From an uncultured Pseudomonadota bacterium (lineage in GTDB: Bacteria; Pseudomonadota; Gammaproteobacteria; Burkholderiales; Burkholderiaceae_C): a stretch of DNA of 17,504 nt. The stretch's first letter is position 1; each line of letters starts with the position of its first letter. This document shows, one piece after another, positions 5,757 to 14,391 of the stretch. The notes under the pieces are model-generated. The model worked only from the letters and a program-made list of their open reading frames with translations. It searched no databases and was not told the DNA's origin. The position numbers and the translations under genes were made by a program. The stretch is from contig ONTY01000065.1 of assembly GCA_900320815.1 (NCBI GenBank), positions 1 to 17,504 of the forward strand, in the 5' to 3' direction.

Positions 5757-7631
5757 TTACTGGGCGCCAGCCTCCTGGAGCATGGCAGCAATCGCATAGT
5801 GCTTTTTCGCGGCGGCCAGCTGCAGCGCCGTTTCCCCTTTGTTGTTTTTGAGATGCACGTCAGCGTCGCTTGCCAGCAGCAGGCGCACCGTGTCGGTGTG
5901 CCCGCGCAAGGAGGCTTCCATCAGCGGTGTGATACCGGCATGGTTGGCCTTGTCAATGTCTGCCCCTTTTTTGATGAGCAGCTTCACAATGGCGGTGCGC
6001 TCATGTGCCGCAGCATGCCAGAGCTCTGTGTTGCCATATTTATTCGCCATATTAACGGCGGCTTTTTCTGCCAGCAAAAACGCCACAATTTTTTTGTGCC
6101 CATACCATGCAGCATGCATCAAGGGTGTTGAGCCATAGGGATCATCCGCAAAATTGACGGCAGCGCCCTTGCCCACCAGAAACTGCACTGATTTCAAAGA
6201 ACCGCTGCGCGCCGCATCCGCCAGCGCGGCGCTGGCATCGGCGCCGCGCTCGAGCAACAACGAAATCATTTCCCGGTTGCGCGCAGGCACATTGCCTTTG
6301 CCGGAAAGCGCCAGCCCCAGTGCTGTGGAGGCGTTTTTCATGACTGCATTCACATCAGCGCCTTTATCCAGCAGCATGCGGACAATATCGATATGCCCGC
6401 GCCGGGCGGCGTTGGTGAGCGCCGTTTCGCCGGACAAGGCACCAGCAGCATTAATATCTGCGCCTTGGTCAATCAGAAACTGCACCATCTCTTTGCGTCC
6501 ATGCCATGCCGCGTACATCAAGGCTGTGCGCCCATGCACACGCCCATTTTTATCCTTGCCTTTTTCCACCATATCAGCACCATGCGCCAGCAGCAGTTTG
6601 GCAGCGGCAATATCACCCTGTTGTGCCGCTTTCATCAGGGCAGTTTCCCCTAGCGTGTCGGTGGCGTTGACATCTGCGCCCCAATTGAGCAACGCTTTGA
6701 TGGCACCTATATTTCCGGAAAATACCGCAAAATCCAGCAGTCGGTAGCCAGCCACGTGCTTATTGGCAAGAGGTTCATTGATGTCAGCACCGGCGTTCAA
6801 TAGCGCAATGAGCTTGGCCTCCTGTGCGCTGTTTTCCACATCCATCACGAATAAAAACCATCGGGCTGCTGCTGTGATGTCTGCTTTGAATTCTACATCG
6901 CGCGCCATACCATCAAGCAATCCCTGCCATGCAGCCGCATCCTCATGCACCAAGGCATATTGCAGTGTCGTGACCCTACCCAGCTCTATGCGGCTTTCAT
7001 CAAGAAATGGACTAAACGCTGGCGGCAGCCCCAGCATGTAGGGCACACCAAAATATTCTGGGAATGCGCCGGCATACTTCTCGCAGTCTTCAAGGTGTAT
7101 GCCGTACGATTGTGAATGCAGCCGCCATACGCTTTTCCAGCGTTCTTTTGAAAACAGCGGGGCGCGCGTGGCCAGCGCCACATCATCATACAAGGACGCC
7201 ATTGCAGCATGACGGATGCTGTTTTTGCCTGTGCTCAGCGAAGCAATATATCCTTGAGGTATATGCCTGCGATAATGCCCAATCCTGCGATTGAACAAAG
7301 CTGGCATGCGGGCAAGATATGGATCGGTCAAAGCGCAGGGATCGATAAAGTAGACACCTGTTTGTGCGCTCCACGGTGTCATCCCCGCAGCCCCCGCTAC
7401 GATGATGCCGAGTTTTATTTGTTTCTTCTCTTTCAACACCCATCCAGATGTATATGGATTGAAATCATGCTTTTGGATGACCGGCAACAATCCAAGATTT
7501 GGATAGTAATAAGAACGCTCGTCACTCGCCCCGTGCCGGCTAGGCGTTTCCCGATAGCTCAATGGCGATTTTATTGAATAACTTGGATAATATCTGATAT
7601 TTACCGTAATCTGGGGCGGAACAGCTAGCAA
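5757..7631 (-). CDS. Glycosyltransferase C-terminal domain fused to ankyrin repeats (second half of a split gene)
   Basis: This open frame of about 624 codons has no credible start of its own: the first possible one is a TTG at 7631 inside what looks like a membrane helix. Residues 1-180 resemble the soluble C-terminal domain of GT-C-type membrane glycosyltransferases: SDERSYYYPNLGLL, GVYFIDPCALTDPYLARMP, RIGHYRRHIPQGY and ATRAPLF. Residues ~180-265 are unassigned. From ~265 to the end there are about ten ankyrin repeats, with units such as GETALMKAAQQGDIAAAKLL, GADVNA and GSTPLMHAAWYGHKKIVAFL. The preceding gene (7540-8679) ends in the other frame. Removing one G from the seven-G run at 7648-7654 joins them into a 973-residue protein. 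In such a protein the ankyrin repeats would probably lie in the periplasm. Ankyrin arrays normally bind proteins; the partner is unknown. Confidence 0.8.
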   Translation of the reverse strand: MLAVPPQITVNIRYYPSYSIKSPLSYRETPSRHGASDERSYYYPNLGLLPVIQKHDFNPYTSGWVLKEKKQIKLGIIVAGAAGMTPWSAQTGVYFIDPCALTDPYLARMPALFNRRIGHYRRHIPQGYIASLSTGKNSIRHAAMASLYDDVALATRAPLFSKERWKSVWRLHSQSYGIHLEDCEKYAGAFPEYFGVPYMLGLPPAFSPFLDESRIELGRVTTLQYALVHEDAAAWQGLLDGMARDVEFKADITAAARWFLFVMDVENSAQEAKLIALLNAGADINEPLANKHVAGYRLLDFAVFSGNIGAIKALLNWGADVNATDTLGETALMKAAQQGDIAAAKLLLAHGADMVEKGKDKNGRVHGRTALMYAAWHGRKEMVQFLIDQGADINAAGALSGETALTNAARRGHIDIVRMLLDKGADVNAVMKNASTALGLALSGKGNVPARNREMISLLLERGADASAALADAARSGSLKSVQFLVGKGAAVNFADDPYGSTPLMHAAWYGHKKIVAFLLAEKAAVNMANKYGNTELWHAAAHERTAIVKLLIKKGADIDKANHAGITPLMEASLRGHTDTVRLLLASDADVHLKNNKGETALQLAAAKKHYAIAAMLQEAGAQ

Positions 7632-8679
7632 GGCAACACATACTATACCCCCCCGCTACTGTATAAAGTAATGCAGTTTTATTCGTGGTATTCCACAGTT
7701 TTGAAAGTGCAATGGCAATGACCGATGTCAGCAGCGATGTGGTCAAAAATCGCCCCTGCATATAATCGCCACCCACATTGCAAATATAAATAATCTGTAG
7801 CGCCACGCCAGCCATCAGCAGGCGAGGCAGGTGGTTTTTCCCAAGGACAAGAGAAATTGGCGCAGCCAGCATCACCGTGCCCAGCGTCAGCGGATCAACG
7901 CGGAAGCTATGTTTCAGATATTCCCAGCCCCGCGCCAGCATTTCAGCGCGCGGATAGCCCAGGTTGGTCTTGGCGATAGCTGTGTTGGGCACCAGCGAGC
8001 CGTAATAGATAAGTGAAAATGCCTCCCACACCAGCACCGGAATAATGGCAAGCAGGGCGAGTTTGATGGTATACCGCCAGCCGCTTGCCTTGTATGCCTG
8101 CCACAGCATCCAGAGTGAAGCTGGGGTGACGAGGAAAATGGAATCCGGCCTTGTAAGAAACAGCAGGCCATAGAGCATGCTGGTCTGGAAAAAGCGTTTG
8201 GCGGCATCCTGCTGCGTGAGAGCGACGAGCACGTAGGCGCACAGCAGCACATGCAGCAGCGGATTTTCCAGCCCACTGCTGGAATAATCGATAAAGGCGC
8301 GCGAAAGCAGCAGGGCGACAGAAGCAAAAATGCCCAGCACCACATTGCCGTGGCGCATGATTTTGAGCAGCAAAAACAGCGTACCCAGCAGACAGGCGTA
8401 GCTCAATGCCAGTGTGAACCAGTAGTGATGCTTGAAAATGCCAATGCCGGTGACCAGCAGCGCATACCAGAGCGGATGCGTGTACACCTGTACGCGCTCG
8501 CCCACATTCCACACTGGGCCATAGCCCTTCAAAAAATTGTCCACAGCGCGGAAAGTGATAAAAATATCATCTTCCAGCCAAGCCGTATTAATAAATACAT
8601 AAGTAAACGCAAGAAAAAATAAAAGCGGCACAATCCATGCCGCTTTGAACAGGGAACATATATTTTTTTGACGATTCAT
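7540..8679 (-). CDS. GT-C-type membrane glycosyltransferase, N-terminal half (frame-split)
   Basis: The 379-residue product is a polytopic membrane protein with around nine hydrophobic helices. After the first helix comes the acidic motif WLEDDIFITFRAVDNFLKG (residues 34-52) and WNVGERVQVYTHPLW, then SSGLENPLLH and FLTRPD. This resembles lipid-phosphosugar-dependent GT-C enzymes such as AftB-like arabinofuranosyltransferases, where the Asp in the first periplasmic loop is catalytic. The donor and acceptor are unknown. ATG 8679 is chosen because GGAG lies 8 bases upstream; the frame is open to 8754, but that part is a hairpin repeat. Translation shifts at a run of seven Gs within the last helix (LLYTVAGG), after which 31 unrelated residues precede the stop. 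With six Gs the frame continues into the C-terminal domain and ankyrin repeats. A run of seven As also lies within codons 4-6. Confidence 0.82.
   Translation of the reverse strand: MNRQKNICSLFKAAWIVPLLFFLAFTYVFINTAWLEDDIFITFRAVDNFLKGYGPVWNVGERVQVYTHPLWYALLVTGIGIFKHHYWFTLALSYACLLGTLFLLLKIMRHGNVVLGIFASVALLLSRAFIDYSSSGLENPLLHVLLCAYVLVALTQQDAAKRFFQTSMLYGLLFLTRPDSIFLVTPASLWMLWQAYKASGWRYTIKLALLAIIPVLVWEAFSLIYYGSLVPNTAIAKTNLGYPRAEMLARGWEYLKHSFRVDPLTLGTVMLAAPISLVLGKNHLPRLLMAGVALQIIYICNVGGDYMQGRFLTTSLLTSVIAIALSKLWNTTNKTALLYTVAGGYSMCCLASCSAPDYGKYQILSKLFNKIAIELSGNA
7648..7654 (-). other. Seven-G run at the frameshift point of the glycosyltransferase gene
   Basis: Seven Cs on the plus strand (Gs in the coding strand) follow codons for LLYTVA. 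With six or nine Gs the two halves join in frame through GGIVCVALLAVPP, a natural continuation of the membrane helix. With seven or eight the protein is truncated. The span 5757-8679 is 2923 bases; minus one it is 974 codons exactly. Confidence 0.8.
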
Positions 8680-11999: not shown

Positions 12000-12040
12000 C
12001 TTCATCGCCGGCTTTATAAGCCGGTAATGAAGCATTATAC
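12000..12040 (+). repeat. Dispersed hairpin repeat, copy 6 (alaS-miaA gap)
   Basis: CCGGCTT (12008-12014) and AAGCCGG (12018-12024) form a 7-bp stem with loop TAT. CTTCAT and ATGAAG add an outer stem beyond a 2-by-2 internal loop. The tail is GAAGCATTATAC. The variable stem pair is G-C. The tail overlaps the last codons and stop of miaA. Confidence 0.78.
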
Positions 12041-12862
12041 TGACGGGTATACGCTTTTCAGCGCCCGCACCACTTCTCCCGCCAACCCTTCCGCCGTGCT
12101 GCCCTCGTCCACGCAGATGCTGCGGCGCTGCGGCATGGCGCGCAGCCAGGTGAGTTGCCGCTTGGCAAGCTGGCGCGTGGCAGCGCAGGCTTTTTCGCGC
12201 AGCCACGCTGCATCCCTGCCTTCATCCAGCGCCTGCCACGCCTGCCGGTAGCCCACGCAGCGCATGGAGGGCAATGCCGGCGACAGGTCGCCGCGTGCAC
12301 GAAGCCGTCGCACTTCGTCCACAAAACCGGCGGCGAGCATGGCGTCAAAACGCGCGGCAATGCGCGCGTGCAGCCAGGCGCGACGGTGAGGCTCCAGCGC
12401 ACACAGCACGCCACCTTGTTCACCTTGCGCGCCCTGTTCGCCCTGCCTTTTTTGCAGCGCGGAAAGCGGGCGGCCCGTGAGCAGCCACACCTCCAGCGCG
12501 CGGCCTATGCGCTGGCTGTCCTGCGGCGCAATGCGCGCGGCGGCCTGCGGGTCAATGCGCGAGAGGATGCGATGCAGCGCCGCCCAGCCGCACCGCGCCG
12601 CCCTCGCCTCAATGCGCTGGCGCACGGCAGCGTCTGCCGCCGGCAGCGCGTCCAGCCCGTGCAGCAGCGCGTGGAAATACATCATGGTGCCGCCGACCAG
12701 CAGCGGCAGCCGCCCCCGCGCGCGAATCTCTGCCATCAGCCGGCGCGCATCGCGCACAAAGTCAGCGGCGCTGTACGGCTCCCGCGCCAGCGCCAGCGCC
12801 AGCGCGCTCTTGCCGCTGGCCGTCGGGCCGGCGAGGGCAATAAAGGGGATGGGAGGCAGCAT
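12035..12862 (-). CDS. miaA: tRNA dimethylallyltransferase MiaA with an internal in-frame deletion
   Basis: MiaA transfers a dimethylallyl group to A37 of tRNAs that read UNN codons. The protein has the Walker A loop GPTASGKS (residues 12-19) and later family segments: [44 protein letters not shown] and [16 protein letters not shown]. It is only 275 residues. After ALALALAR it jumps to [12 protein letters not shown], so compared with E. coli MiaA about 44 residues are missing. The loss removes the DSxxxYxxMDIGTAKP motif, including the catalytic Asp and substrate-binding residues, so activity is doubtful. GCGCCA is repeated in tandem at the junction, consistent with slippage. An imperfect repeat also encodes [12 protein letters not shown]. 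The start ATG overlaps the stop of the upstream gene (TGATG); a GTG at 12865 is an alternative. It may be a pseudogene or an assembly artefact. Confidence 0.88.
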
Positions 12863-13266
12863 CACACCCTGGAGAGCACGTTGGCGCCATAAAAAAGGTT
12901 TCTTGCCGCAAACTCTGGCAGGCTCTCGGCCCGCAGCAGCGCCCGTGCCGCTGCCAGCGTCTCTGGATTTTTAATATTGTTTATTCCCCAGGCCGGTTCA
13001 GATAAAACAAACCTGGCATGAAAAACCCATTGCGGTGGCGGCATTCCCACTTCATTGCACAAAGCTTCCACTGTTGCCGCCACAAAAGCGGCAAACGCTG
13101 GATCGGCGCCCGGCACATTGGCCGGTTCGTCGCGGACGATTTTTCTTCTTGTGGCTTCGTCGGAGGCGCGGAAATTGTCGATGAATTGCGACCACGTCAA
13201 TGACGGGTCATTCGCGGCAGCTATATCGGCAGCCGCAAGCAAACCGTCTTCTTTTCTAAAAAGCAT
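12862..13266 (-). CDS. Conserved-looking hypothetical protein coupled to miaA
   Basis: I do not recognise this 134-residue protein with confidence. It is soluble, with no signal peptide or membrane helix. The N-terminal half is charged and helical ([23 protein letters not shown]). The middle has [24 protein letters not shown], and the end is [18 protein letters not shown]. That C-terminal pattern (P-x-F-x-x-RN-x-F, then a leucine and Arg-Val end) recalls small uncharacterised proteins sometimes found beside nucleotidyltransferase-type toxins. No such partner lies here. The start ATG 13266 lacks a clear ribosome binding site. Its stop overlaps the miaA start as TGATG, so the two are translationally coupled. 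Its codons near the start are more AT-rich than those of miaA, and it may be a recent arrival. Confidence 0.65.
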
Positions 13267-13329: not shown

Positions 13330-14229
13330 TCATCGCACCCGCACCCGCACCCGTGGCTTTTCCATGCCAAACGCGCGCCGCAGCGCGGCGCCGATGCTGC
13401 GGTGCAGGCGGCGCGCAGCGGCGAGTTTGCCGCCCATATTCAAAAAGCCGTGCATAACGCCTGCATATTCCTTCACCGCGCTGTCGGCCTCGTCAATGTA
13501 GTGCTGGAAAAACCAGTGCAGACTGCGCGCGTCCAGCATGGGAGCGTTGGCATAGCGCGTGCGCGAGGTGAAGGCGGCAAGGCCAGCGGGCACGCTGCCG
13601 GCGGTGCTGGGGTAAATCAGCACCTGCAGCGCCAGCGGCAGCCCCACATCGCGCGCGTGCAGCGCGCTGACCGCTGCCAGCGTGCCGCCGGCGGAGTCGC
13701 CGCCCACGGCGATGCGCCCTCCGTCCAGCCCAAGCTGCGCAGCGCCGCCGTGCGCCAGCCACTCTAGCGCGTCAATGGCATCGTTGACGGCGGTAGGAAA
13801 GCGCCATTCGGGCGCGAGCCGGTAGTCGGGTGCCAGCACCGCGCAGCCGCCCGCCTTGCTGATGGCACGGCACGCGCCCTCGTGCGTCGCCGGGCTGCCA
13901 ATGACGTAGCCGCCACCGTGGAAAAACAGCAGCACGGGCAGCGGCGCGCCGTCGCCCGGCATGCGCGGCGCCCACAGGCGCGCCGGGATGTCCTGGCCAT
14001 CGCGCATGGGGATGTGCAGCGCACGCATGCGCAGCAGCGGCTCATAGGGCACGTCCAGCAGCCCGACGCCGCTGGCATACAGCGAGCGCGCCTGCATCAC
14101 GCTCATGGCACATATCGGCGGCGCAGAGGCGCGCGCCATCGCCTGCGCCAGGTGCAGCACATCGGGCGCAAGACACGCGGCGATGGCAGGGTCAAGCGCA
14201 CCCTTGGACGCATGAACAAGTTCTGGCAT
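13330..14229 (-). CDS. HSL-family alpha/beta hydrolase (esterase), catalytic-Asp region missing
   Basis: The protein (299 residues) is a hormone-sensitive-lipase-type carboxylesterase. It has the oxyanion motif HGGGYVIGSP (104-113), APDYRLAPEW (133-142), the nucleophile elbow GGDSAGG (Ser179) and the catalytic His260 in YAGVMHGFLNMGG. Between HWFFQHYID and EADSAVKEYAG the family normally has about 45 more residues, including the LxDE-type segment with the catalytic Asp. They are absent, and Ser-to-His spacing is 81 residues here, where I recall about 127 in family enzymes such as EstE1. Activity is therefore doubtful. ATG 14229 is chosen; the upstream extension of the frame is repeat-derived. 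The C-terminus is a (RV)n tail encoded by three copies of GGTGCG. A hairpin repeat with a T-run lies in the leader. It is divergent from dsbC. Confidence 0.85.
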   Translation of the reverse strand: MPELVHASKGALDPAIAACLAPDVLHLAQAMARASAPPICAMSVMQARSLYASGVGLLDVPYEPLLRMRALHIPMRDGQDIPARLWAPRMPGDGAPLPVLLFFHGGGYVIGSPATHEGACRAISKAGGCAVLAPDYRLAPEWRFPTAVNDAIDALEWLAHGGAAQLGLDGGRIAVGGDSAGGTLAAVSALHARDVGLPLALQVLIYPSTAGSVPAGLAAFTSRTRYANAPMLDARSLHWFFQHYIDEADSAVKEYAGVMHGFLNMGGKLAAARRLHRSIGAALRRAFGMEKPRVRVRVR

Positions 14230-14261
14230 GGTATACAAAATACCACTATATTTAATACACA

Positions 14262-14296
14262 AAAGCCCGCAATAGTTGCGGGCAAGTGAATGATAC
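14262..14296 (+). repeat. Dispersed hairpin repeat, copy 7 (esterase-dsbC gap)
   Basis: GCCCGCAA (14265-14272) and TTGCGGGC (14276-14283) are perfect 8-base arms with loop TAG. The tail is AAGTGAATGATACC. The variable stem pair is C-G, a further compensating change. On the minus strand the hairpin is followed by four Ts inside the esterase leader, so it might attenuate that transcript. Confidence 0.65.
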
Positions 14297-14391
14297 CCTG
14301 AAAAATACCCGACAGGCATCAAAAAACACTGGGCAGCTTGCCTCTGCACCCATTCAATGGTTGGGGAAGAGCAACTGTCGTGCTGCTATGC

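Follow-up and report, generated by a model that had tools for sequence, protein, structure and literature searches.

An AftB-like glycosyltransferase gene with an ankyrin tail, read in two frames across a run of seven Gs, as a possible phase-variable locus

The described systems closest to the locus reported here are the phase-variable poly-G glycosyltransferases known from Neisseria (lgt, pgl) and Campylobacter, in which a G run lies within the reading frame of a surface-glycan enzyme and the gene goes off frame there while being otherwise intact. The cut-off for poly-G/C switching is set at 9 or more in Neisseria (PMC5953494) and at 7 or more in Campylobacter, where switching has been demonstrated for tracts of at least eight (PMC6321876). 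On the side of the enzyme, the comparison is with mycobacterial AftB, a terminal beta-1,2-arabinofuranosyltransferase (structure 9dlf), which has 11 membrane helices and, behind them, a C-terminal domain in the periplasm (PMC12041299). The GT136 three-component pentofuranose systems of Citrobacter, which resemble the present locus by analogy only, employ a GT-C enzyme that works in the periplasm, where it transfers a lipid-linked pentofuranose onto a glycan of the cell surface (PMC11127046).

The gene described below shares with the Neisseria and Campylobacter genes the position of the run, the loss of frame at that point, and an otherwise intact coding sequence. It differs from them in its run of 7, which lies at the Campylobacter cut-off and under the Neisseria one, in its AftB-like GT-C family, in its ankyrin tail, and in that a single tract length was seen. 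In the open-licence papers searched, we recognised none that describes switching of this kind for an enzyme that is AftB-like or fused to ankyrin repeats.

The window, the whole stretch of 17,504 nucleotides analysed here, corresponds to contig C111 in full; the draft genome to which it belongs comprises 2,102,861 bases in 339 contigs and is 81% complete. The frames on either side of the G7 run form one gene, located in a low-GC stretch on the minus strand and reading from 8679 to 5757, with the following parts:

7648..8679, minus strand: first frame, the GT-C membrane part, with its ATG at 8679 and 344 codons to the tract
7648..7654, minus strand: G7 tract, the site of the frame change (C7 on the plus strand)
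7540..7647, minus strand: first frame continued out of frame beyond the tract, for 35 codons plus stop, ending a 379-aa product
7656..7658, minus strand: TAG closing the second frame, directly 5' of the tract
6945..7649, minus strand: second frame, part 1, the C-terminal domain of the same glycosyltransferase family, periplasmic by homology
5757..6944, minus strand: second frame, last part, a linker and the ankyrin-repeat tail, with the stop at 5757

Elsewhere in the window, a hormone-sensitive-lipase-like esterase (13330-14349, minus strand) matches its models partly (LipP1 2-224 of 300) and may be without a stretch near its C-terminus. Searches of the window with Rfam at gathering thresholds and with a tRNA scan found nothing.

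Up to the tract the first frame reads ...ALLYTVAGG, after which it meets its stop at 7540; the second frame starts with GIVCVALLAVPP and stays open for 630 codons down to the stop at 5757. Because the TAG just 5' of the tract shuts the second frame, the change of frame must fall between 7654 and 7540. The two open frames belong to one gene, since they match consecutive positions of the family profile across the tract: 7678-8625 corresponds to model positions 7-320 and 7098-7664 to 321-505, the second match overrunning the tract by a few codons, through the TAG. This profile was built from seven sequences, with the window left out; one of the seven is a paralog that this genome also carries. 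The G7 run, or a point just after it, is where the frame changes, in agreement with an earlier note on this DNA, which had located the loss of frame after LLYTVA at the seven Gs (7648-7654). The 974 codons that the note had counted with one G fewer also fit the span of both frames, which is 2,923 nt, a multiple of three plus one. Judging from hydropathy and alignment, the tract is predicted to code inside the last membrane helix.

A run of this kind is ordinary in this genome; a frame change that lands on one is not. The run at 7648-7654 is the only one of at least seven Gs or Cs in the window, and one is the count expected in 17.5 kb: G7 is matched 177 times in the genome when overlaps are counted, and scaling from 74 runs counted in 59 stretches (411,719 bases) gives an estimate of approximately 122 distinct G/C runs of at least 7, about one per 17 kb. 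With a run expected at that spacing, the presence of a G7 run alone was ruled out as evidence. The chance of a run falling within the 115-nt interval in which the frame must change is, by arithmetic, about 0.7%. Given this unusual coincidence, the run is where the change happened, either in the organism or in the data.

The membrane part was called a membrane glycosyltransferase in the earlier note, an assignment that stands and that sequence matches narrow to an AftB-like GT-C enzyme. The N-terminal piece matches the AftB structure 9dlf with an E value of 1.4e-15, and the family profile matches AftB at 1.1e-33, with a best match that spans the first ~230 profile positions only. Against the NCBIfam AftB model NF041481, the N-terminal piece reaches an E value of 3.5e-17 and 61.7 bits, far below the curated equivalog cut-off of 1050, and the enzyme is for this reason described as AftB-like and not as AftB. 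The C-terminal domain that follows the last membrane helix is present, in the second frame, which is predicted to open with the periplasmic domain of ~230 residues. The enzyme is therefore like mycobacterial AftB in its membrane GT-C sequence and in the C-terminal domain behind it, and unlike AftB in scoring below the AftB cut-off and in carrying an added ankyrin tail. Apart from its change of frame the gene is intact, and its product would be an AftB-like transferase of the GT-C (pentofuranosyl) type, extended at the C-terminus by ankyrin repeats, whose probable role is to add sugars to the cell surface.

The assignment of the second frame to the C-terminal domain of the family, also made in the earlier note, holds for its first ~230 residues; beyond them come a linker and ankyrin repeats, which the note had missed. 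The last ~400 residues are mostly ankyrin repeats, with a PF12796 match at an E value of 3.4e-61 and with PF00023 and other ankyrin models also above the Pfam cut-off. A structure model of the downstream piece, used solely for the ankyrin helix pattern, has a mean pLDDT of 64, with residues 1-107 below 50, and displays helix pairs in the ankyrin part. If the topology of AftB applies, the tail would face the periplasm. Ankyrin matches were found in none of 87 related loci, a set that includes the paralog of the same genome and two duplicates, and in which some loci are truncated where their contigs end. That paralog, intact on contig C150, has 583 aa (with a start codon chosen by hand) and is without an ankyrin tail. 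On contig C131, an ankyrin-bearing frame that ends at the contig end is 57% identical to the tail in the window, and on contig C333 (L007 3689-4160, minus strand) approximately 84 N-terminal residues are joined to approximately 60 residues from the end of the ankyrin tail, in another frame. This C333 copy is a remnant of a second glycosyltransferase-ankyrin fusion. The ankyrin-bearing piece has 88 matches in the genome, nearly all of them to ankyrin repeats and spread over many contigs, which makes this an ankyrin-rich genome; slightly upstream of one ankyrin-repeat gene lies a C12 run (L108 on C162, 2644-2655), which could act on transcription.

The downstream codons are not decayed. Aligned with nine relatives, the C-terminal half is as similar to them as the intact paralog is, with identities, half and paralog respectively, of 37% vs 32% to L008, 41% vs 39% to L028, and 27% vs 28% to L042. 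Among the residues invariant in these nine relatives, the half keeps 20 of 24 and the paralog 22 of 24. A coarser alignment of 83 relatives, which omits L004 and L035 (the L008 gene again) as well as L036 and L056 (over-long ORFs), gives 16 of 21 invariant residues kept in the C-terminal piece and 54 of 55 in the N-terminal one. Relative to the paralog, the N-terminal half has a dN of 0.29 and a dS of 1.25 (dN/dS ~0.23) and the C-terminal half a dN of 0.61 with dS saturated; the ankyrin part has a dN of 0.33 and a dS of 1.46 relative to the C131 copy (dN/dS ~0.23). Averages of this sort are blind to the most recent past, and so to a very recent loss. Since the second frame is open for 630 codons and has diverged no more than the intact paralog, the gene carries a single lesion, which is recent or reversible. 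The earlier note had named, as what would speak against its proposal of switching, a stable frameshift shared by all relatives with decayed codons downstream; neither was found, the best matches in the 87 related loci being in one frame and the downstream codons not decayed, and the proposal stands as partly supported.

In each of the 87 related loci, paralog included, the best match lies in a single frame, 80 of these loci being the best 80 of 291 found, a selection that may leave out broken copies. Three relatives carry in-frame G9 runs: an Azoarcus MAG (L031), a Zoogloeaceae MAG (L033), and Pseudomonas indica (L042). The first two genes are orthologs, 65% identical, with their runs at different sites, and the run of P. 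indica lies in the same linker as the one in the window, somewhat upstream. In a further relative (L194), a C9 run is located near the start, with an in-frame ATG (1372) before it and another (1486) after it; an out-of-frame ATG before this run, read by eye, was withdrawn once the ATG at 1372 proved to be in frame, and the run may lie within the gene or ahead of it. The 3 runs of at least nine Gs in 85 distinct genes of the family, a count that omits L004 and L035 (the L008 gene again) and L194 (from a later search), compare with a mean of 0.36 and a maximum of 3 in 200 synonymous shuffles, and none was found in 541,583 flanking bases of the family genes. Runs of at least seven Gs are not in excess (7 vs 12.35 expected). 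The genomes of the Azoarcus and Zoogloeaceae MAGs are rich in long G runs, with 75 and 56 overlapping G9 matches, as compared with 12 in the genome of L028 and 11 in the larger one of P. indica, which reduces the weight of the first two runs. Some G runs in these two MAGs are well over 20 bases long, and the genomes may be contingency-rich or the runs assembly artefacts.

Other G/C runs in the same genome were assigned by reading individual genes, as calling frames by codon usage over all runs proved too weak for low-GC genes: it missed the break in the window, and several of the breaks that it reported were, on reading, gene junctions. The 59 stretches surveyed were partly picked for long runs or ankyrin genes and draw on the first 100 listed G7 matches, and 13 of their 74 runs could be assigned, ten in frame and three off frame, a contrast that was spotted post hoc. 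The ten genes read in frame include glutamate dehydrogenase, an E1-E2 ATPase, a SpoU methylase, a T2SS F protein, TonB, and an L,D-transpeptidase. An extra in-frame run (L120:15855) lies in a multi-helix protein without a Pfam match, and the remaining 60 are intergenic, at junctions, start-proximal, or unclear. The three genes that go off frame at a run of at least seven are the split gene, a GT39/PMT_2-like gene, and an OafA-like acyltransferase. The GT39-like gene (PF13231, E 9.9e-18) shifts frame at a G8 run (L115 on C164, 3878-3885); its nearest ATG is out of frame and the first in-frame ATG lies 43 codons in, and the gene may be dead. In the acyltransferase (PF01757, E 1.5e-24), a C10 run (L110 on C57, 1415-1424) follows an out-of-frame ATG and precedes the body of the gene, and the sole start-like codon after the run in the frame of the body, in the stretch checked, is a TTG; this C10 run is a second candidate switch. 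Non-glycan genes also have start-proximal runs after possible in-frame ATGs, among others C11 in L109, C10 in L111, and C8 in L116, L118, and L124, the ATGs being putative starts from a mechanical scan. Such runs are thus not special to glycan genes, and together with the in-frame start of L194 they weaken the pattern in favor of switching.

A change located at the run could reside in the data, with the real gene in frame and the tract length wrong in the contig. The assembly does contain faults that would suit this explanation, namely scaffold gaps and lesions in two conserved genes. The sole matches to glyS in the genome (L154 on C116, about 1000-1150) are split over two frames, 23 residues of the query being absent from between the two pieces, and miaA (window 12035-12865, minus strand) is without ~47 internal residues, including the conserved DSALVYRGMDIGTAKP, that are present in 7 of 7 genomes of the same genus. 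Both lesions may be misjoins, that of miaA alternatively a deletion; however, they are tens of bases long and are not single-base homopolymer changes. Shorter homopolymers are not generally broken either: exact A/T 6-runs were followed by the same frame in 66 cases and by a break in 0, and G/C 6-runs in 18 and 1, the one break reading as a gene junction. The ten genes that read in frame through G/C runs of at least seven speak against an assembly error, as do the 7 of 20 sampled ORFs that score above the equivalog cut-off over nearly the full model (RimO, IlvC, XseA, TruB, GatA, PrfA, and GatB), in a sampling by coding score that favors intact ORFs. We consider an assembly or sequencing error rather unlikely. 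Still more so, to the point of being very improbable, is recoding, in which the G7 allele would yield the full protein because the transcript slips, or the ribosome undergoes programmed frameshifting, at the run. The run could slip and the second frame begins exactly at the tract, but the single-frame best matches of the 87 related loci give no sign of a conserved need for recoding.

A change in the organism could also be a one-way loss, by a real and recent frameshift at a mutation-prone G run that killed a dispensable, horizontally acquired gene, with no selected switching. Among 29 genomes of the genus, 3 have the gene, counting the present one; no second copy of the split gene was found in these 29, and a plasmid search found no match. 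This restricted occurrence, the low-GC surroundings, the sibling copy on C333 that is already a remnant, the broken appearance of the GT39-like gene, and the shortness of seven Gs for a selected switch would all be consistent with loss. Against it, the gene has no other lesion, the divergence downstream is not in excess, and the G9 runs of the relatives are left unexplained. Loss of this kind is possible, if somewhat unlikely. The G9/C9 runs in relatives and the other off-frame genes of glycan type are circumstantial evidence that favors switching. We tentatively place a low-rate phase-variable locus first, by a narrow margin over one-way loss and assembly error; it is the reading that accounts for the relatives' runs as well.

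If the locus is phase-variable, the assembled sequence would be the off-frame allele of an otherwise intact gene, and slipped-strand mispairing would alter the length of the tract. Of the three length classes modulo three, one would give the full enzyme; with either of the others, translation would run off frame at the tract, stopping 35 codons later in the assembled allele. The off-frame product would lack the last membrane helix and what follows it, periplasmic domain and ankyrin tail alike, and should be inactive. The locus would then act as a low-rate translational contingency gene for surface-glycan decoration.

A wider proposal, which we regard as doubtful, is that genes for AftB-like GT-C enzymes have recurrently become poly-G/C contingency loci across Betaproteobacteria and Pseudomonas, with runs arising repeatedly at new sites of the same gene and switching periplasmic pentofuranose decoration; in the present case a periplasmic ankyrin tail would be switched along with the enzyme. 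Should the split gene turn out to be only a case of loss or of misassembly, it would urge caution on homopolymer frameshifts in draft assemblies. Together with the genes of the Azoarcus and Zoogloeaceae MAGs, P. indica, and L194, it provides a small test set for the convergent evolution of runs in one enzyme family. If switching is real, an unusual enzyme-ankyrin fusion is switched, and the homopolymer switching of surface sugars would extend to AftB-like periplasmic GT-C enzymes.
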